A stretch of 35,017 bases of DNA from Coriobacteriia bacterium. Its GTDB lineage: Bacteria; Actinomycetota; Coriobacteriia; Anaerosomatales; Anaerosomataceae. A program made the position numbers and the translations under genes. Shown piece by piece: positions 894 through 13,062 of this stretch (positions are counted from its first letter, which is position 1; every line of letters begins with the position of its first letter). The notes beneath the pieces are model-generated. The model was not told where the DNA came from, did not search any database, and was given only the letters and a program-made list of their open reading frames with translations. Where the stretch lies: contig JAFGNP010000060.1 of the NCBI GenBank assembly GCA_016926975.1, forward strand, positions 1 through 35,017, written 5' to 3'.

Positions 894-922
894 ATCGTAG
901 AGTGTTCCGCGGTTGTGGGCAA
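894..922 (-). promoter_or_regulatory. Sigma70-type promoter for the DUF5648 repeat protein gene
   Basis: Read on the minus strand there is a -35 TTGCCC (917-922), a 17-base spacer and a -10 TACGAT (894-899). This would start transcription near 887 and leave a leader of about 63 bases before the ATG at 823. The call rests on the hexamers and spacing only. Confidence 0.5.
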
Positions 923-986
923 CGTGCAGCAGGGCTTGGATGCACTGGGCGGGCGCTGCCGCGCGTGTGCGTGAGCTCGGTCGTCC

Positions 987-1016
987 TTGACACCTCGCCC
1001 CTAACCCCCGTATCGT
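987..1016 (+). promoter_or_regulatory. Sigma70-type promoter for the T-box/methionine operon
   Basis: A perfect -35 TTGACA (987-992) lies 18 bases before TATCGT (1011-1016). Transcription would start near 1023, about 60 bases before the T-box stem I and 350 bases before the first start codon, so it fits a long regulated leader. Confidence 0.6.
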
Positions 1017-1065
1017 CGTGCAGAACTTCACAGTCGCCTGTGATGGGGATGAGTACGCGCACTCG

Positions 1066-1356
1066 AGTAGGGCAACAGAGAGCCGGGGCAGCTGAGAGCC
1101 GGCGCCTGAAAGAACGCGGAACATGGCCCCGGAGGCATCCGGAGGAAACGCGCGAGCGGAGTAATACCGGACGGCAGCCCCCGTTACCTTAGGCTTGAGA
1201 GCATCGGACTTCCCGGCGAAGAACTCCCGCCCGTCGGATCCACCACCGTCCCGTGCTCGAGATGAGGCCACGAACTCGTGGTGAAGTCGGGTGGTACCGC
1301 GAAGGACGTTCAGCGCCTTTCGCCCTGGCGAACAAGTCCGGGCGGGAGGTGTTTTT
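1066..1356 (+). ncRNA. T-box leader (methionine, AUG specifier) of the homocysteine/methionine operon
   Basis: The conserved T-box core GGGTGGTACCGCG is at 1289-1301. The base after TGG is T, which matches a tRNA discriminator A, as in tRNA-Met. A stem I forms from 1083-1089 paired with 1126-1132 (7 bp). Directly above it is a purine-flanked AUG at 1123-1125 in the specifier-loop position, so the sensed tRNA is most likely tRNA-Met. Stem I is compact (about 50 bases) and seems to lack the long distal arm of classical T-boxes. A conserved-type ACGG...CCGTTA element is at 1171-1186. The antiterminator (GCGAAGG 1299-1305 with CCTTTCGC 1316-1323) excludes the terminator stem 1314-1351. Uncharged tRNA-Met should therefore favour readthrough into the DUF39 gene at 1375. 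The T-box and terminator are seen directly; the specifier assignment is inference from position. Confidence 0.88.
1314..1356 (+). terminator. T-box regulated intrinsic terminator
   Basis: A 12-bp stem (1314-1325 with 1340-1351, with three G-U-type pairs) is followed directly by TTTTT (1352-1356). Its left arm overlaps the antiterminator arm, as in transcriptional T-boxes. The DUF39 ribosome-binding site GGAGG follows about 8 bases later. Confidence 0.85.
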
Positions 1357-1374
1357 CATGTTCGGAGGTAGCAC

Positions 1375-2547
1375 ATGGCGAAAAGTTGGGAAGAGATCAA
1401 CGCCCGCATCGCTAGCGGCGAAGCGGTGGTGTTCACCGCCGAGGAGTTCGCCTTGCTCGCTGCAGATGAGGGCGTGAGTGAGGCCGCGAGGCGCGTGGAT
1501 GTCGTGACGACCGGCACCTTCGGCCCGATGTGCTCCTCGGGTGTGGTGCTTAACTTCGGGCACTCCGATCCTCCGATACGCATGGCCGAGATCTGGCTGA
1601 ACGACGTAGCCGCTTACGGCGGACTTGCCGCGGTGGACACCTACCTGGGTGTGACGCAGCCGAGCAGGTCGCGGGGCATCGAATACGGCGGGGCCCACGT
1701 CATCGAGGATCTTCTGAGGGGCCGAGCGGTGCGTCTTCGGGCTACCAGCCAGGGGACCGACTGCTATCCGCGGACAGAGATCGACACCTGGGTGACGCTC
1801 GAAGACCTGAATCAGGCGTACTTCTTCAATCCGCGTAATGCCTACCAGAACTACTCGGTGGCGGTGAACTCGACAGACCGGGCGCTGCACACCTACCTCG
1901 GCACGTTGCTGCCTCGTTTCGGCAACGCCACATACTGCTCGGCCGGCGCGCTCTCGCCGCTGCTCAACGATCCGACGTACCGCACCGTCGGTGTCGGGTC
2001 GCGCATCTTCGTGGCCGGTGCGCCCGGCTACGTGGCGTGGGAGGGCACCCAGCACAATCCCAACACGAACCGCGACGAGAACGGCGTGCCGGTGAGCGGG
2101 GCCGGGACGCTTGCCGTGATAGCAGATCTGAAGAAGGCGAGTCCCGAGTACTTCTCGGCGGCCACCTTCACGGGGTACGGGGTGTCGAGCTTCGTCGGGA
2201 TCGGTGTGCCGATACCCGTCCTCGATGAGGACATCGCCGCCACACTGGCGCTTACAGACGCCGACTTGACGGCCACGGTGTACGACTACGGTGTCCAGCA
2301 CCGGTCGAAACCGGCGCTCGGTCAGGTGACTTACGCGGAGTTGCGCAGTGGCTCGATCGAGCTGGATGGCAAGACCGTTCCGACAGGCCCGGTCTCATCA
2401 CTGCCGCTTGCGCGGAGTATCGCGGCCGAACTGAAGCGTTGGATCGCCGAGGAGCGCTTCGAGCTCACGCAGCCGGTGCAGCTGCTTCCACAGATAGGGA
2501 GCCAGAGCGTCGGGCCGCTGGAGATCAAGACGGGGGAGGCGATATAG
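1375..2547 (+). CDS. Homocysteine biosynthesis protein, DUF39 family
   Basis: A 390-residue protein with a GGAGGT ribosome-binding site 8 bases before the ATG. The sequence matches the DUF39 family (for example the FGPMCSSG motif and a later FFNPRNAYQNY segment). Members work with a NIL/ferredoxin partner to make homocysteine from an aspartate-semialdehyde-derived acceptor and sulfide, bypassing cystathionine and O-acyl-homoserine routes; this was shown for the methanogen pair. Two cysteines stand in conserved-looking contexts, C53 and C130 (GTDCYPRTE), and are candidates for the catalytic sulfur carriers. The CBS domains found at the C-terminus of some archaeal homologues are absent. It is the first gene of the T-box operon, and its stop codon abuts the start of the ferredoxin partner. 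The family call is firm; the exact substrate in this organism is inferred. Confidence 0.9.
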   Translation: MAKSWEEINARIASGEAVVFTAEEFALLAADEGVSEAARRVDVVTTGTFGPMCSSGVVLNFGHSDPPIRMAEIWLNDVAAYGGLAAVDTYLGVTQPSRSRGIEYGGAHVIEDLLRGRAVRLRATSQGTDCYPRTEIDTWVTLEDLNQAYFFNPRNAYQNYSVAVNSTDRALHTYLGTLLPRFGNATYCSAGALSPLLNDPTYRTVGVGSRIFVAGAPGYVAWEGTQHNPNTNRDENGVPVSGAGTLAVIADLKKASPEYFSAATFTGYGVSSFVGIGVPIPVLDEDIAATLALTDADLTATVYDYGVQHRSKPALGQVTYAELRSGSIELDGKTVPTGPVSSLPLARSIAAELKRWIAEERFELTQPVQLLPQIGSQSVGPLEIKTGEAI

Positions 2548-2955
2548 ATGGCGCGCAAGAGACTGGATCTCGTCTTCCCGCCGCAGCTGTCTTTGAAGCC
2601 GATCATCTACCACCTCGTCAAGGACTACGATCTGGTGCCGAACATCCTGCGCGCGCAGATCCATCCGGCGCAGGAGGGCCGGATGGTGCTGGAGGTCACG
2701 GGTGCGAAGGAGAGCTACGACGCCGGTGTCGCCTTCCTGGAAGCTCAAGGCCTTACGGTCAGTGAAGCGGCCAGTGACATCGTGTTGGACGAGGAGCGCT
2801 GCGTGAACTGCGGGTTGTGTACGGCTGTCTGCAGGCCCGGCGCGCTGGCTCTCGACCGAAAGACTCAGACTCTGACGTTTGACAAGGACAAGTGCGTGTA
2901 CTGCGAGGCGTGCGTGATCGCCTGCCCCCGCCGCGCGATCACGCTGAGCTTCTGA
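2548..2955 (+). CDS. NIL domain protein with two [4Fe-4S] clusters (DUF39 partner)
   Basis: A 135-residue cytosolic protein starting on the base after the DUF39 stop codon, which suggests translational coupling. Residues about 5-75 form a NIL-type domain (ligand-binding fold also seen in MetN C-termini). Residues 80-135 carry two ferredoxin motifs: C85-x2-C88-x2-C91-x3-C95 and C116-x2-C119-x2-C122-x3-C126. In methanogens a protein of this architecture is required together with DUF39 for homocysteine formation, presumably supplying electrons or sulfur reduction. The adjacency, order and domain layout here match that pair. The electron donor is not visible in the window. Confidence 0.92.
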   Translation: MARKRLDLVFPPQLSLKPIIYHLVKDYDLVPNILRAQIHPAQEGRMVLEVTGAKESYDAGVAFLEAQGLTVSEAASDIVLDEERCVNCGLCTAVCRPGALALDRKTQTLTFDKDKCVYCEACVIACPRRAITLSF

Positions 2956-2973
2956 GGCTTGAGGAGGCGACCG

Positions 2974-5382
2974 ATGCCTGACATAGCATTGCGGCTCGGC
3001 CGCGACATACTGGTCCTCGACGGCGCCATGGGTACGATGCTCCAACGCCACGACCTGCCCGCCGAACAGTCGCTCGTCCAGCTCAACGTCACCGCGCCCG
3101 AGCTGGTCGAGGAGGTGCACCGCCTGTATCACCTGGCGGGCGCCGACTGCGCGACCACCAACTCCTTCGGCGGGACTCGCCACAAGCTCGATGCGTACGG
3201 GCTAGGCGATCAGCTGGTTGAGCTCAATCGCGCTGCGGTGCGCGTTGCGCGAGCGGGTGGGGCACCGCACATCCTTGCCGAAATGGGGCCTAGTGGGCTC
3301 GTGCTCGAGCCCCTGGGTACCGCCGCGTTCGAGCACGTCTTCGACTTCTTCGCCGAGCAAGCGTCCGCGCTCGCGGCGGAGGGTCCGGATGCCATCAACA
3401 TCGCCACGATGACCGACATAGCCGAGGCGCGCTGCGCGGTTCTCGCGGCACGCTCGGTCACGGACTTGCCGGTCTTCGTTACCTGCACCTTCGGGTTGAA
3501 CGGTCGGATGGACCTCTCGGGGACCGACCCGGAGACAGCCGCAGTGGTCCTGGAAGCTGCAGGCGCCTCGGTCGTCGGGATGAACTGCGGGCTCGGACCG
3601 GAGCAGATGCTGCCGCTGGTGGAGCGTATGGCCCTTGCCACGGAGCTGCCGATCATAGTGCGTCCGAACGCGGGGCTGCCGAGGCTGGTGGACGGGAAGA
3701 CGGTGTTCCCGGGTACTGCCCTCGAGATGGGCGAATACGCTTCGCGCTTCGTGGACGCGGGGGCCGCGCTGGTCGGTTCGTGCTGCGGTTCCACGCCGGA
3801 GTTCACCGGTGCGATCGCGGATGCTGTGGCGGGGCGAGAGCCTGCGCCGCGCAGTACGGCTCCCGCCGGCGTGACGCTCGCCGGGCCGCGTGGTCTGGTG
3901 CGCATCGGCGCGGGGAAGCCGCTGGCAACAGTCGGCGAGCGGATCAACCCCACCGGCAAAAAGCGGCTGGCGGAGAGTCTGCGTGCGAGCACTCTCGACG
4001 TGGTGCGCGCGTACGCTGTCGAGCAGCAGGATGCCGGAGCCGACCTTCTTGACGTGAACGTGGGCGCTGCCGGAGTATCGCAGGCTGACTTGCTGCCAAG
4101 AGCGGTGCTGGCGCTGTCGGGTCTTGTGGATCTACCGCTCTCCATCGACACGACTGATCATGAGGCATTGGAGGCGGCGCTAAGGATCTATCCGGGGCGC
4201 GCGCTCATCAACAGCGTCAGCGGAGAGAAGTCCTCGCTCGAAGCGGTGCTGCCCTTGGCGGTTCGATACGGCGCGGCCGTGGTCGTGCTTGCACTGGACG
4301 ACGACGGCATACCTCACAGCGCGGATGCCAGGGTGGAAGTTGTGCACAGGGTGCGGGCGGCTGCGCACGCCGCCGGGCTGGACGACGGCGATCTCCTCGT
4401 GGACGCGCTGGTCCTGGCGGCCGCCACAGAAGACGGCGGAGCCTCCGCAACACTTGAGGCCATTCACACCGTAAGCGCCGATCTGGGGCTTGCTACTATC
4501 GCGGGCGTCAGCAACGTCAGCCACGGCCTCCCGGGTAGACCTGAACTCAACGCGCAGTTTCTCAAGATGGCCGTCCAAGCGGGCTTGACCGCCGCGATCG
4601 TCAATCCCTCTGAACACCTTGAGCTCGATTCGGCTACCGCCGCCGCTGCGGCCGACGTGCTGCTGGGGCGCGATGTCCATGCGGAGCGCTGGATTGCCAG
4701 GGTGGCCGTGTCCCAGGGTGCGGTCGAGGCCAGCGAGCCCTCCGTCGGCAGTACTACGGCCGAGCGGCTGGCGCTGGCGGTCGAGCGCGGCGACGCAGAC
4801 TCGGCGCCGGCGCTGGTCGAAGAGCTGCTGAGAGGCGGCGCTGATCCCCAGTCGGTGATTGCCGACGTACTCACGCCGGCGATCCAGCGTCTTGGCGATG
4901 CGTACGGGCGCGGGGACGCCTTCCTGCCGCAGCTGATCGCTGCAGCGGACGCGATGAGGACGGCGGTGGAGCGTGCGAAGTCGCATCTGCCGGAGGGTTC
5001 TGACGACCACGAGGGCTGCGTCGTGTTCGGCACGGTCAAGGGCGATATCCACTCCATCGGCAAGGACATATGCGTGAGTATGCTGGAGAGCCAGGGCTAT
5101 CTTGTGGACGACCTCGGCGTGGACGTGTCCGCAGAGGCTTTCGCCGAAGCGGCAGCGACAGCCGACGCAGTGTGTCTCTCGGCACTCATGACGACCACGC
5201 TCGCCAACATGGAGAAGGCGGTGTCGGCCGTGCGCGAAGTGGCCGAGGTGCCGGTGTTCGTGGGCGGTGCGGTAGTGACGCGCGATTTCGCCGATGGGCT
5301 GGGTGCGGGTTATTCTGAAGACGCACCCGGCTGCGTGCGCGCGGTCCGTAGTGCCTTGAGCGCACCCAAGGGGAACGCATGA
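2974..5382 (+). CDS. metH: Cobalamin-dependent methionine synthase, short form without activation domain
   Basis: An 802-residue protein. The start is the ATG at 2974, 6 bases after GAGGAGG; a TTG 15 bases upstream has no such site. The domains in order are a homocysteine S-methyltransferase barrel (1 to about 285; zinc ligands C205 in GMNCG and C270/C271 in GSCCG), a pterin-binding methylfolate barrel (about 300-565; GERINPTG motif), a B12 cap helical domain (about 585-670) and a B12 Rossmann domain with DxHxxG (D691-I-H693-S-I-G696; H693 is the lower cobalt ligand). It transfers the methyl group of methyl-tetrahydrofolate to homocysteine. The C-terminal SAM-binding reactivation domain of E. 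coli-type MetH (about 1200 residues) is absent, as in many anaerobes, so oxidised cob(II)alamin must be reactivated by another protein. It sits 18 bases after the NIL gene and overlaps metV by ATGA. Confidence 0.93.
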   Translation: MPDIALRLGRDILVLDGAMGTMLQRHDLPAEQSLVQLNVTAPELVEEVHRLYHLAGADCATTNSFGGTRHKLDAYGLGDQLVELNRAAVRVARAGGAPHILAEMGPSGLVLEPLGTAAFEHVFDFFAEQASALAAEGPDAINIATMTDIAEARCAVLAARSVTDLPVFVTCTFGLNGRMDLSGTDPETAAVVLEAAGASVVGMNCGLGPEQMLPLVERMALATELPIIVRPNAGLPRLVDGKTVFPGTALEMGEYASRFVDAGAALVGSCCGSTPEFTGAIADAVAGREPAPRSTAPAGVTLAGPRGLVRIGAGKPLATVGERINPTGKKRLAESLRASTLDVVRAYAVEQQDAGADLLDVNVGAAGVSQADLLPRAVLALSGLVDLPLSIDTTDHEALEAALRIYPGRALINSVSGEKSSLEAVLPLAVRYGAAVVVLALDDDGIPHSADARVEVVHRVRAAAHAAGLDDGDLLVDALVLAAATEDGGASATLEAIHTVSADLGLATIAGVSNVSHGLPGRPELNAQFLKMAVQAGLTAAIVNPSEHLELDSATAAAAADVLLGRDVHAERWIARVAVSQGAVEASEPSVGSTTAERLALAVERGDADSAPALVEELLRGGADPQSVIADVLTPAIQRLGDAYGRGDAFLPQLIAAADAMRTAVERAKSHLPEGSDDHEGCVVFGTVKGDIHSIGKDICVSMLESQGYLVDDLGVDVSAEAFAEAAATADAVCLSALMTTTLANMEKAVSAVREVAEVPVFVGGAVVTRDFADGLGAGYSEDAPGCVRAVRSALSAPKGNA

Positions 5383-6041
5383 TAATCACGAAGCCGCGCG
5401 AGTGGGCGCGCATACAAGAGAATCTGGCAGGGATCGGCGCCAGGCGTGTGTTCCTGATCGGCTGCGGACAGTGCGCGACGGTTGCGCACACGGGTGGAGA
5501 GAAGGAAGTCGCGGAAATGGCCGTGCGCCTGGAGACCGAGGGTGTGGAGGTCACCGGTTGGACGGTAGCCGAAGTCACCTGCCATCTGAACGGCACCAAG
5601 CTCGAGTGCCGCAAGCACCAGGAGGCTATCGACGCCGCGGACGCCGTTGTCGTGCTGGCGTGCGGCGCCGGCGTGCAGACGGTGGCCGACTCGATCCCGA
5701 AGCCGGTCTTTCCCGGACTGGAGTCTCTCTTCCTCGGCACGGTCATCAGAAACGGCATCTTCGAAGAGCGGTGCCAGACGTGCGGCGACTGCGTTCTCGA
5801 CAAGACGGCGGGCATCTGCCCGGTCACGACCTGCCCGAAGGGGCTGCTGAACGGTCCGTGCGGAGGCATGTGGAACGGCATGTGTGAGGTGCTCACTGAT
5901 CGAGAATGCACGCACGTGCGCATACGCAGACGCTTGGATGAGCAGAACCGTGCCGGCAAAGGCACGCTTGCTCCAAAGGACTTCAGCACCGCCCTGAAAC
6001 CCGGCGGCGTCAACATCCGCGGACAGGGAGGTGGCCGATGA
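5379..6041 (+). CDS. metV: MetV, methylenetetrahydrofolate reductase C-terminal-type protein
   Basis: A 220-residue protein whose ATG overlaps the metH stop (ATGA). It matches the MTHFR C-terminal (MetV) family. It has a C29-x2-C32 motif near the N-terminus and a dense C-terminal cysteine cluster (C132, C135, C138, C147, C152, C161, C169, with GPCGGMWNGMCEV), which in this family binds iron-sulfur clusters. In acetogens MetV forms a complex with a short MetF and is needed for reduction of methylene-tetrahydrofolate. The gene order metV-metF with an overlapping ATGA is the same here. It probably feeds electrons to MetF in the cytosol; the source of those electrons is not encoded in the window. 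Confidence 0.9.
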   Translation: MIITKPREWARIQENLAGIGARRVFLIGCGQCATVAHTGGEKEVAEMAVRLETEGVEVTGWTVAEVTCHLNGTKLECRKHQEAIDAADAVVVLACGAGVQTVADSIPKPVFPGLESLFLGTVIRNGIFEERCQTCGDCVLDKTAGICPVTTCPKGLLNGPCGGMWNGMCEVLTDRECTHVRIRRRLDEQNRAGKGTLAPKDFSTALKPGGVNIRGQGGGR

Positions 6042-6904
6042 GCCGCCTTCGCGCGCTGCTGGAGAGAGGCGAGTTCGTCGTCACGGGCGAGGTGGCCCCG
6101 CCAAGAGGCTCGGACATGGCAGGCATGCACGCCGCCGTGGACCTTCTGGCGCCGCACTGCCATGCGCTCAATGTGACCGACAACCAGGGCGCGAGCCTGC
6201 ACCTGTCGAGTCTCGCCGCTTCGAAGGCCATTCTGGATCGGGGTATCGAGCCGATCTTCCAACAGACGTGTCGCGACCGTAACCGGCTTGCGCTCCAGTC
6301 CGATTTGTTGGCGGCCTGGACGCTGGGTCTGGAGAACGTGCTGGTGGTGACCGGAGACGACCCGCGCGCCGGCGACCATCCGAACGCCAAGGGTGTGTTC
6401 GACCTGGACTCGACGCAGCTGGCGCAGATCGCGAGTGCCATGAACGAGGGGCATGACATGATGGGCCGCGAGCTCATGGGCGGCACAGGCTTCTTCATCG
6501 GAGCGGCCATGTTCCCCGAGGCCGAGCCCTGGGATGTGCAACTCGCGCGGGTAGAGCAGAAGATGGAGGCGGGCGTCCGCTTCTTCCAGACCCAGGCGGT
6601 CTTCGACATCGCCAAGCTGGAGCGTGCCGTGGAGGCGCTCCGTCCTCTTGGAGCGAAGATAATCGCCGGCGTCCTGGTGTTGAGGAGTCCTCGTGTCATC
6701 GAGTTCGTCAACGGGCATCTGGCGGGACTGATGGTGCCCGACGCCATAGCCGACCGGATCCGGGATGCGCAGGACCCCGCCGAGGAGGCGGTCCGGCTTG
6801 CCGCCGAGCAGGTCAAGGCGATCCGCGACATCGCAGACGGCGTGCACGTGATGCCGCTGGGGCTGGACAGCGCCATCGGCCGCATCCTGGGCGAGCCGGA
6901 GTAG
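6038..6904 (+). CDS. metF: Methylenetetrahydrofolate reductase
   Basis: A 288-residue TIM-barrel protein overlapping metV by ATGA. Family features include GEVAPPRG near the N-terminus (catalytic Glu), VTDNQGA, QTCRDRN and the FAD-binding VVTGDDP segment. It reduces 5,10-methylene-tetrahydrofolate to 5-methyl-tetrahydrofolate, the methyl donor for the MetH two genes upstream. The ribosome-binding site GGGAGGTGG is inside metV, 4-12 bases before the start. Because it is paired with MetV it is more likely part of an acetogen-type MetVF complex than an E. coli-type stand-alone enzyme. The gene belongs to the T-box operon, so methyl supply and homocysteine supply would be regulated together. Confidence 0.94.
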   Translation: MSRLRALLERGEFVVTGEVAPPRGSDMAGMHAAVDLLAPHCHALNVTDNQGASLHLSSLAASKAILDRGIEPIFQQTCRDRNRLALQSDLLAAWTLGLENVLVVTGDDPRAGDHPNAKGVFDLDSTQLAQIASAMNEGHDMMGRELMGGTGFFIGAAMFPEAEPWDVQLARVEQKMEAGVRFFQTQAVFDIAKLERAVEALRPLGAKIIAGVLVLRSPRVIEFVNGHLAGLMVPDAIADRIRDAQDPAEEAVRLAAEQVKAIRDIADGVHVMPLGLDSAIGRILGEPE

Positions 6905-6909
6905 TCCGC

Positions 6910-8484
6910 ATGCGCCGCATCGCAATCTACAGCGATGTGCACGGCAACGTTTCCGCGATGGAGGCCGTTGCAGCTTCCATGGAGGCCGAGGGGTTGTCAG
7001 AGCGCTACTGCCTGGGCGACCTGGTAGGCCTCGGACCGCGTCCTGACGAAGCAGTCGCGCTGGTGCGCTCTTACGGCGACAAGGTTATTCAGGGCAACTA
7101 CGACAGGGCGATCGGGGCTCATCTGTGCAGTCCGGGCAGCGAGTTCCCTACAACGCAAGAGGCGCTCGACGGTGCGGAGTCATACGCGTACACGATCGCC
7201 GAGACGAGTCGTGAAGCCGCGGACTACCTGTTCGTCCTTCCTCGCGACCTTCGTCTCGAGGAGGGCGGGGCGAGCATCCTTCTGTGCCACGGGACTCCTC
7301 GGCTCATCAGCGGGCTTTTGGGTCCGGACACCGCGGGTCCGCATCTGGTGTCACTCGCACGGGCCGCAGAGGCTGACGTCGTGTGTTGCGGTCACCTACA
7401 CGTGCCTTTCCACCGCTCCATTCCAACAGAGGCTGGCGTGGTGCACTGGGTGAACGTCGGCTCGGTCGGTCGTCCGCGCGACGGAGATCCCCGCGCGGCC
7501 TGGGTCGAGCTGGTCATCGGCACCCAGGGCGAGGTGGTCGAGCACGCTCCTGCGGACACTGCATGCAGGCGGATCGCAGACCTGGATCTCTGGCTCGGCG
7601 TGACGGTGCATCGTGTCGCTTACAACATCGACGCTGTCGTGCGTGAGATGACGCAAAAGGGACTCCCTGCGACGCTTGCCCACGGGTTGAAGCTGGGCCT
7701 GGAAGAGCACGACGTGGCAGCGGACGGCTCGATCCAGGTGGTCGACGTCGGCGCCTTGGAGAATGAGATCGCGGAGCCGGTCGGAACGGCTCTCACATTC
7801 GCCGAGTCCACAACGCCCTGCACGTGCTTCATGGAGGACCGTATCGCTGCGTACGAGGCGCTTGTGCGGATACTCCGAGGTGAGATCTCCGAGGTGTCGA
7901 TCGCGGTGCGTCGACTTCGCATAGCGATGCGCAGCTGTCGGGTGCACCTGCACGTGGACGAGGCGGCGATCGTGGCTTCGTTCGAGGCCGCCGATCGCGC
8001 GCTGCTCACTGCGGCAGGTCGGGCGGCCTTCGAAGAGGAGCGGGACCGACTCTACGGGTTGAGGACCGGCTTCGACCCATTCGCGAACGTGCTGTCGCCC
8101 GACGAGGTCACTTACCTGTCCGGCGAGGTCGAGGAGCATCGTGAGGCGCTGGAGAGGATGTACCGCGAGGCGGCGTTCACAGTACCGATCCTTCCAGGGT
8201 CCTTGCGCAGCTCGGGTCACATCGCGACAGAGCTTGCGTTCCTGGCACACTGCTTGCGTGGAGCCGAGGCAGGCGTCACGCAAGCGCCGGAGCGCGCACA
8301 GGAGTTCTTCGCGCAGCACCTGTCGGAATGGGGTGTGCTCTTCGCGGTTGTCGTTGGTCAGCAGACTTCCGAGCCGGTCATGCGCTATGCGGGGCTTGCT
8401 CTCGATAAGTTCCTGGCCTGCGAAGCGGGCATCTTCAGGCATGCGTTCTCGGAGATGTGCAGCTTCCGGATCCGGAGGGGGTGA
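6910..8484 (+). CDS. Metallophosphoesterase fused to a TorD/DmsD-like chaperone domain
   Basis: A 524-residue protein starting 5 bases after metF. Residues 1 to about 235 are a calcineurin-type metallophosphoesterase of the YfcE-like group, with D9-x-H11-GN, GD37-LVG, GN63-YD, H127 in CHGTP and GH162-L-H164 as metal and active-site motifs. A linker resembling the tail of this family (RVAYNIDAVV) ends near 265. From about 300 to 505 the sequence becomes helical and resembles TorD/DmsD/NarJ-type maturation chaperones, notably SGHIATELAFLAHCL (H437) followed by FFAQHLSEWGVLFA. Such chaperones bind apo-molybdoenzymes and their Tat leaders. The next gene is a MoaE-like molybdopterin synthase subunit, which supports a molybdoenzyme link. 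No stop codon separates the two halves, so the fusion is real unless there is an assembly error. The substrate of the phosphoesterase is unknown. Confidence 0.85.
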   Translation: MRRIAIYSDVHGNVSAMEAVAASMEAEGLSERYCLGDLVGLGPRPDEAVALVRSYGDKVIQGNYDRAIGAHLCSPGSEFPTTQEALDGAESYAYTIAETSREAADYLFVLPRDLRLEEGGASILLCHGTPRLISGLLGPDTAGPHLVSLARAAEADVVCCGHLHVPFHRSIPTEAGVVHWVNVGSVGRPRDGDPRAAWVELVIGTQGEVVEHAPADTACRRIADLDLWLGVTVHRVAYNIDAVVREMTQKGLPATLAHGLKLGLEEHDVAADGSIQVVDVGALENEIAEPVGTALTFAESTTPCTCFMEDRIAAYEALVRILRGEISEVSIAVRRLRIAMRSCRVHLHVDEAAIVASFEAADRALLTAAGRAAFEEERDRLYGLRTGFDPFANVLSPDEVTYLSGEVEEHREALERMYREAAFTVPILPGSLRSSGHIATELAFLAHCLRGAEAGVTQAPERAQEFFAQHLSEWGVLFAVVVGQQTSEPVMRYAGLALDKFLACEAGIFRHAFSEMCSFRIRRG

Positions 8485-12330: not shown

Positions 12331-13062
12331 ATGGTATGGGAGCCTCGGGAATATCGCCAGCAGACGGCCGCTGAGGGTCTTGTCACGTTCGAGGTCGTGC
12401 AGGACGAGACCGACCTGCAGGTGAGCGCGCAACGCGATCTCGCACTGGAGGCCGCGGGCCTCGTAGCGTCCGTAAGGGCGGATCTTCAGGGCTACATCGG
12501 CTCACACCCGTTCTTCGAGGAGAGCTTCGTTCCGGTCGACGTGGAGCCGGATTCCCCGGAGATCGTCCTGGCGATGGCTGCCGCAGGTAGGGCGGCCGGG
12601 GTGGGACCGATGGCGGCGGTGGCCGGGGCGATAGCCGAGCGTGTCGCGCGGGGTCTGGCGGCACTCTCGGCCGAGGTGATAGTCGAGAACGGCGGCGATC
12701 TCTACGTGGTGGGCGCGACAGCGAGGCGCATCCTGCTGCTCGCGGGTGACTCGCCCCTGTCCGGGCGGGTGGCGATCGCGTTGGGTCCGGAGTCGCTGCC
12801 GATCGCGGTGTGCACGTCTTCGGGCAAAGTAGGGCATAGTGTGAGCCTCGGCATCGCGCACGGCGTCACGGTACTGGCGACAGACGGGGCGGTGGCCGAT
12901 GCGACAGCGACGGCTGCGGGCAACATGGTTCACGGTGTGGAGGACGTCGAGAAGGCGCTGGAGTTCGCGCTCGGTGTGTCGGGGGTGTCCGGGGCCGTTG
13001 TGATAGCCGAGGACAGGATCGGAGCTCTCGGCGATGTCACGCTTGTCCCGGTCGAGGCGTGA
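12331..13062 (+). CDS. UPF0280 family protein (ApbE-like fold)
   Basis: A 243-residue protein of the UPF0280 family, related to ApbE-type flavin transferases. It has the family's ENGGDLY segment, a GLAALSAEVIVE strand and a GVTVLATDGAVADATATAAGN stretch with conserved aspartate and asparagine residues. The biochemical role of UPF0280 is not established, and flavinylation is only suggested by the fold relationship. The start at 12331 follows a 61-base intergenic gap shared with the divergent GGDEF gene; no clear Shine-Dalgarno is present, and the start codon lies in a 10-bp palindrome (ACCATATGGT, 12326-12335). Confidence 0.85.
   Translation: MVWEPREYRQQTAAEGLVTFEVVQDETDLQVSAQRDLALEAAGLVASVRADLQGYIGSHPFFEESFVPVDVEPDSPEIVLAMAAAGRAAGVGPMAAVAGAIAERVARGLAALSAEVIVENGGDLYVVGATARRILLLAGDSPLSGRVAIALGPESLPIAVCTSSGKVGHSVSLGIAHGVTVLATDGAVADATATAAGNMVHGVEDVEKALEFALGVSGVSGAVVIAEDRIGALGDVTLVPVEA

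Follow-up and report, generated by a model that had tools for sequence, protein, structure and literature searches.

Within a 35,017-nucleotide stretch of DNA (hereafter the window; contig JAFGNP010000060.1, positions 1–35,017, of the Coriobacteriia bacterium assembly GCA_016926975.1), a leader RNA of the T-box type at positions 1031–1356 precedes five genes predicted to make homocysteine and methylate it to methionine; the genes and RNA elements of the window described here lie on the plus strand unless stated otherwise. Our analysis, which followed up an earlier note made from the sequence, makes it highly probable that this leader is a T-box for uncharged methionine tRNA placed over one homocysteine-to-methionine operon, and that it carries a lineage-specific extra RNA domain that would disfavor the terminator.

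The first gene (1375–2547) encodes a DUF39/HcyBio homocysteine biosynthesis enzyme (PF01837, 484.7 bits against a cut-off of 26.2) whose residues Cys53 and Cys130 are invariant in a seven-sequence alignment. It is followed by genes for a NIL-domain 2x[4Fe-4S] ferredoxin (2548–2955; PF09383, 57 bits, plus Fer4), a short MetH with homocysteine-methyltransferase, pterin-binding and two B12 domains (2974–5382; PF02574, PF00809, PF02607, PF02310), MetV (DUF5981; 5379–6041; PF12225, 99.8 bits) and the methylenetetrahydrofolate reductase MetF (6038–6904; PF02219, 110.8 bits). MetH does not have the C-terminal reactivation domain, its alignment to TIGR02082 extending only to position 829 of 1182. Since the first two genes adjoin (2547/2548), the second and third are separated at 2955/2974 and the last two junctions overlap (5379–5382 and 6038–6041), the intergenic gaps are 0, 18, −4 and −4 bp; the tightly packed or overlapping run of genes described in the earlier note is borne out by these spacings and by the domain matches.

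A sigma-70-type promoter, TTGACA-18-TATCGT (987–1016), was detected upstream of the leader by a scan for promoter-like sites and is conserved in relatives, 37 of 39 of which have a counterpart about 130 nt 5′ of the specifier. It is the sole promoter-like site in 900–7400 on either strand, although a scan for the sigma-70 consensus can miss actinobacterial promoters. When the leader was searched with Infernal against Rfam, as the earlier note had proposed, cmscan run with an E-value threshold matched RF00230 at 1031–1330 on the plus strand across the full model (1–219; 77.4 bits, E = 3.4e-17). The gathering cut-off of this family is 93 bits, so that cmscan at the default setting reported no Rfam match in the leader: the covariance match spans the full model, but the copy in the window scores below the curated cut-off. 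The shortfall in score accompanies an insertion of ~66 nt at RF00230 position 148 and a high G+C content. The leader starts at ~1023–1031, ~40 nt before position 1066, where the first reading had placed it. As the plain minimum-free-energy fold of the whole leader was no better than those of shuffled sequences (z = 0.04), and is thus uninformative, the evidence for the leader consists of homology and covariation, not folding energy. No match to the S-adenosylmethionine (SAM)-I riboswitch (RF00162) was found at the DUF39 leader; the single match in the genome precedes metK.

The RF00230 alignment and an alignment of 35 leaders (A3) place stem I at 1031–1136, with the AGUA of the specifier loop at ~1052–1055 and the apical AGAGA at ~1077–1081. 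Stem II and the IIA/B pseudoknot follow at 1137–1186 by the RF00230 alignment (GACGG ... CCGUUA, with CCGUUA at 1181–1186), and stem III at 1268–1281 by sequence and the same alignment. The antiterminator (1286–1329), which contains the canonical 7-nt T-box bulge UGGUACC at 1292–1298, folds in every leader of the window's order. The intrinsic terminator (1312–1356; −28.6 kcal/mol) consists of 14 + 3 bp at 1312–1353 and then a U-tract, and its 3′ arm includes GGGCGGGAG at 1340–1348. Both hairpins use the strand CUUUCGCCC and are therefore mutually exclusive, and throughout the order the corresponding strand, C(U/C)UUCGCCC, is able in each leader to pair either upstream in the antiterminator or downstream in the terminator. 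In an alignment built without structure, 91.2% of cells are paired for the antiterminator versus at most 57% with slid partners, and 85.1% for the terminator versus at most 65%; judged from these alignments, the two hairpins covary among the leaders of the order.

The specifier is AUG (1123–1125), followed by the purine G, in the context GAAC-AUG-G at 1119–1126; GAACAUGGCC is invariant in the 35 aligned leaders. Three more T-box-like leaders are present in the same genome. The RF00230 columns that hold GAA-C-AUG-G in the DUF39 leader hold GAA-A-AUC-A in that of ileS (L001) and G-UUC-A in that of pheS (L003). This calibration within one genome makes the assignment of AUG, and so of methionine, secure. 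Across the order, AUG is also the specifier in all 41 leaders in which it can be read (one further leader is cut off), and no other specifier codon, which the earlier note had named as a potential objection, was encountered. The remaining elements that the note had recognized, the T-box core, the antiterminator and the intrinsic terminator, likewise hold up, given the covariance match, the calibrated specifier and the exclusive hairpins. The fourth T-box of the genome (L004, 1501–1700), upstream of a pyridoxal phosphate-dependent aminotransferase, has a clear core and terminator and a degenerate stem I.

Three tRNAs with anticodon CAU are encoded in the genome, all with discriminator A (A73) and an encoded CCA, and all match the UGGU bulge. 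By their sequences, L249 looks like the initiator tRNA, and L230 and L231 look like elongator or Ile2 tRNAs. That the specifier reads lysidine-modified tRNA-Ile2 might be entertained because its anticodon is identical at the gene level and the two elongator-type CAU tRNAs are indistinguishable here. We regard this as very improbable, as mature lysidine tRNA-Ile2 is established to pair with AUA and not AUG, the regulated genes serve methionine, and for ileS this genome has a T-box with AUC.

Control of the operon by methionine tRNA is well supported by these features. The leader would act as a class I, transcription-attenuating T-box that senses uncharged tRNA-Met through AUG. With charged tRNA-Met, the strand CUUUCGCCC would pair downstream and the terminator would form; with uncharged tRNA-Met, the ACCA end would pair with UGGU at 1292–1295, CUUUCGCCC would be tied up in the antiterminator and transcription would proceed into the operon. 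Its products are predicted to convert aspartate semialdehyde and sulfide to homocysteine (DUF39 and the NIL-ferredoxin), which would then be methylated with methyl-folate by way of MetV-MetF and the B12-dependent MetH.

How widely is this arrangement conserved? A search for PF01837 across 300 genomes of the class found it in 47, all in the window's own order (uncultured Coriobacteriia, probably the Anaerosomatales/OPB41 lineage), and stretches were retrieved for the 46 DUF39 genomes other than that of the window. As the earlier note had suggested, we looked for T-box leaders upstream of DUF39 elsewhere. The T-box core GGUGGUACC(G/A)CG lies 72–106 nt before DUF39 in 42 of the 45 loci of the order with upstream sequence, and the same leaders emerge, independently of the core pattern, when 69 genomes of the order are scanned with Rfam; the DUF39 leader of G124 exceeds the gathering score of 93. 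At the f4 loci without a T-box, no other Rfam element was found. In other classes of Actinomycetota, T-boxes with AUG precede DUF39 in family f42 (seven loci) and at L113 (85–121 bits), most f42 leaders exceeding the cut-off of 93, and a T-box also precedes DUF39 in a named metagenome-assembled genome (MAG; L144). Other named relatives of the DUF39 protein have no T-box core close before the gene. In four Clostridia-type loci among those scanned (L145, L147, L151, L166), a SAM-I riboswitch instead precedes DUF39, and in many Clostridia the operon consists of DUF39, the NIL-ferredoxin and COG2122. We also searched the 69 genomes for a second methionine T-box regulon using the specifier pattern. 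Of the extra matches that were inspected, those in G110, G108, G054 and G020 are without a T-box core and look like chance, and a match in G032 proved to be a fragment of a DUF39-type leader at a contig end, not a second regulon.

The gene order DUF39, NIL-ferredoxin, metH, metV, metF is kept in nearly all full-length loci. About half of the relatives have a gap of 300–370 bp between the NIL-ferredoxin gene and metH, and in L078 2.4 kb separates metH from metV, which could mean that the leader drives only the DUF39-NIL-ferredoxin pair and that metH, metV and metF have a promoter of their own. This is unlikely for the locus in the window, given its gaps of at most 18 bp, the retention of the gene order in nearly all relatives and the finding that no promoter-like site, of the kind that the earlier note had considered capable of uncoupling metH, metV and metF from the leader, lies inside the operon, though such a site could evade the sigma-70 scan. 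A second T-box or riboswitch in the gap of the relatives was considered and rejected, since the gap codes for a small membrane protein, the gene for which is absent from the window. This protein of ~105 amino acids (MPQLxFxQ ... LQxGxFxxIVYxTxYRF) is without a convincing Pfam match; examples occur ~1580–1960 nt past the DUF39 start in L036, L039, L049, L055, L068 and L076.

The earlier note had overlooked a conserved extra RNA domain of ~62 nt in the leader (1198–1259; covariance model R1), which sits between the IIA/B pseudoknot and stem III, where RF00230 has a short linker. The domain has three stacked helices: a 6-bp outer helix, a middle helix of 4–5 bp and an inner hairpin with the conserved loop CUCCCGCC (CUCCCGCCC in the window, 1224–1232); on the 3′ side is a bulge with CCACCACC (1240–1247), a conserved unpaired sequence in most leaders. 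Model R1 matches 37 of the 42 DUF39 leaders of the order and had no match in the other T-boxes compared from these genomes, in the f42 leaders or in L113, and the possibility that the domain is a general T-box feature of the order was therefore rejected. Run on whole genomes of the order, R1 gives a single match per genome, in the DUF39 leader, except for two weak and probably chance matches (G035:C11:71567–71613, 29.6 bits; G102:C142:7852–7913, 27.4 bits), and across 387 genomes of the phylum it matches only in the four included from this order.

In alignment A5, 12 of 17 pairs of the domain show changes on both sides, compared with 5.0 expected by shuffling, although these pair counts are flattered because A5 was fitted to the structure. 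In the same alignment, 96.7% of cells are paired versus at most 39% when partners are slid, with a covariation score of 0.308 versus 0.117. Applied to A5, RNAalifold independently recovers both the outer and the inner helix, and its prediction includes 12 double-changed pairs. No description of the domain was found in the literature searched, nor did we find a paper there that combines DUF39, a T-box and homocysteine. The conserved extra domain, which is more unusual than the operon layout, is the real novelty of this leader.

What might the domain do? Its loop CUCCCGCCC could form nine Watson-Crick pairs with the terminator 3′ arm at 1340–1348, and the isolated duplex is worth −19.4 kcal/mol. 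Across 35 leaders, the uninterrupted Watson-Crick run between loop and arm has a median of 8, compared with 5 within the terminator stem itself, and shuffled loops reach the observed run in fewer than 5% of trials in 26 of the 35. The terminator arm is the loop's unique best partner within the leader in 28 of 34 cases and is tied in two; in three of the remaining four, a U-G pair interrupts what would otherwise be a continuous run of 8–9. In L042, where the loop is CCCCACC and the arm GGUGGGG, a compensatory double change keeps the loop-arm pairing Watson-Crick and leaves a G-U wobble with the shared strand, and in L048 the loop-arm pairing is longer by one G-C. A weak U-G pair is present in the terminator of all 35 domain-bearing leaders, whereas the pair is U-A in 6 of the 12 leaders without the domain (Fisher p = 8.6e-5, with counts made by eye and relatedness uncorrected). 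In L056, only the outer helix of the domain is left and the terminator arm, GGGCGAGG, restores Watson-Crick pairing with the shared strand, which may be a co-loss of loop and arm complementarity. The bulge of the domain also has a potential partner, as its CCACC is complementary to the T-box GGUGG; GGUGG is invariant, and hence this pairing is without a covariation signal.

Read most simply, these complementarities suggest a loop that competes for the terminator arm and would favor readthrough after the antiterminator has formed, the C-rich loop pairing with the G-rich 3′ arm so that termination is disfavored. More specifically, and only tentatively, the loop may act as a trap that captures the 3′ arm as it emerges once tRNA has fixed the antiterminator, with the CCACC bulge masking GGUGG when tRNA is not bound. 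If this is true, the usual choice between terminator and antiterminator would be replaced by a competition among three strands, and this would be peculiar to the methionine leader in a single Coriobacteriia order.

Our main rival for the role of the domain is discrimination between initiator and elongator tRNA, such that the leader would sense initiator tRNA-fMet and not elongator tRNA-Met. The idea is suggested by the experimentally studied met T-box of S. aureus, which prefers the initiator tRNA by unexplained means (PMC3771891). Because all three CAU tRNAs carry A73, the specifier and UGGU cannot separate initiator from elongator, and among the T-boxes compared from these genomes, only the methionine leader has the domain. 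However, leaders without the full domain (L056, L063, L066, L067, L069 and those of other classes) retain AUG and the same genes, and the match of the loop to the terminator arm would be left unexplained; on balance we think this rival has a modest chance of being correct.

It is less probable that the domain binds a ligand of its own (SAM, cobalamin or some unidentified compound, for example) as a separate aptamer, which would make the leader a two-input device. The compact, covarying fold with conserved unpaired nucleotides would suit an aptamer, as would the dependence of the operon's products on B12, folate and sulfide. However, the domain matches no Rfam family, so that a known riboswitch was rejected; it occurs only inside the DUF39 leader, never convincingly alone; and its conserved loop and bulge are both accounted for as antisense to strands of the leader.

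Several observations weigh against the view that a methionine T-box with a terminator-opposing domain governs this operon. The copy in the window falls under the curated Rfam cut-off, and three DUF39 loci of the order (L045, L057, L070) have no T-box, so that the coupling of leader and gene can be lost. Five leaders are without the domain or most of it (L056, which has the outer helix only, L063, L066, L067 and L069), and it is thus not essential for T-box action. For the domain itself, there is the fitting of A5 to the structure. The loop-arm pairing rests on conservation, on L042 as the one clear case of compensation and on the extended pairing of L048, and as the sequences are related, the loop-arm counts are not independent. 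Finally, the genome is a MAG that is 93.7% complete, which makes absences from it provisional.

If the operon makes homocysteine, is the route complete? The homocysteine route of Desulfovibrio needs DUF39, a NIL/ferredoxin protein and COG2122 (PMC5764234). All three genes are present in this genome and the operon holds two of them; the third, for a COG2122 (UPF0280) protein, lies at 12331–13062 (NF003323, 274.4 bits, cut-off 271; the sole NF003321 match in the genome). As this gene is located beyond a GGDEF gene on the opposite strand, it falls outside the control of the T-box leader, and the operon, which the earlier note had called complete, leaves one required gene to a separate transcription unit. 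In profile searches of the genome's contigs, on which the genome-wide absences rest, no MetB/C/Y/Z-type enzyme (PF01053) was found, compared with 13 of 14 control genomes that have one, so that DUF39 is the only homocysteine route seen in this genome. We infer that homocysteine is formed from aspartate semialdehyde and sulfide by the predicted DUF39 route. Among the 69 genomes of the order, 20 have both DUF39 and PF01053, 27 DUF39 only, 17 PF01053 only and 5 neither, a tendency toward mutual exclusion (Fisher p = 0.0095, with relatedness uncorrected). Close relatives occur widely, in Clostridia, in other Actinomycetota, in Spirochaetes and in archaea, and the pathway is not confined to the methanogens and some anaerobes to which the earlier note had mainly assigned it.

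A SAM sensor is also present in these organisms. One SAM-I-like riboswitch per genome occurs in 60 of the 69 genomes, and metK lies behind it in all four loci examined, including that of this genome (L258; G000:C61:22676–22781, minus strand), which is under the Rfam cut-off. With a T-box on the methionine operon and SAM-I on metK, methionine supply would read tRNA and the conversion of methionine to SAM would read SAM.

Comparison with known systems separates what is ordinary in this leader from what is not. Judged by sequence, the DUF39 leader has every structural T-box feature that could be checked: like canonical T-boxes, it has stem I with AGUA and AGAGA, a specifier, stem II, the IIA/B pseudoknot, stem III, a UGGN bulge and an antiterminator exclusive with the terminator, and AUG is the specifier for methionine (PMC7583486). 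Unlike them, it has a domain of ~62 nt whose loop could pair with the 3′ arm of the terminator. Lineage-specific insertions of unexplained function occur in every T-box domain, according to a 2020 review (PMC7583486), and the extra domain offers the field one defined member of this class. The S. aureus metICFE-mdh leader is similar in that a T-box is placed over a methionine operon with methyl-folate genes and that the part separating stem I/II from the antiterminator varies in length and structure; it differs in its MetI/MetC homocysteine route, its CodY protein repressor and its lineage (PMC3771891). The Clostridia loci with SAM-I over DUF39, the NIL-ferredoxin and COG2122 likewise control this pathway through an RNA element in this position, but there the sensor reads SAM, COG2122 follows the NIL-ferredoxin and metH-metV-metF lie outside the run. 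A tRNA sensor would take over the sulfide-to-homocysteine pathway where Clostridia use a SAM sensor. As in the DUF39 pathway of Desulfovibrio and methanogens, all three genes are in this genome, but here two share an operon with metH, metV and metF, with COG2122 nearby but separate (PMC5764234), an arrangement that would place the carbon-sulfur skeleton and the methyl group of methionine under one control. The conserved regulon gives independent support for a role of this pathway, whose chemistry is only partly settled, in bacteria beyond Desulfovibrio.

The five genes through metF that the earlier note assigned to the operon stand, but the operon may not end there. As the next gene, for a metallophosphoesterase with a C-terminal nitrate-reductase-delta/TorD-like stretch (6910–8484; PF12850, PF02613), begins 5 bp past metF, it is possibly co-transcribed with the operon, and the T-box unit may extend beyond metF; this gene adjoins metF only in the closest genera. 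Between 6910 and 11215, the strand that carries metF continues with closely spaced or overlapping genes for the metallophosphoesterase-TorD-like protein, a MoaE-like protein, dihydrolipoyl dehydrogenase and lipoyl synthase, into which the unit may reach. On the other side of the leader, the start of the contig encodes a DUF5648-repeat secreted-type protein on the minus strand (2–823), divergent from the T-box promoter.

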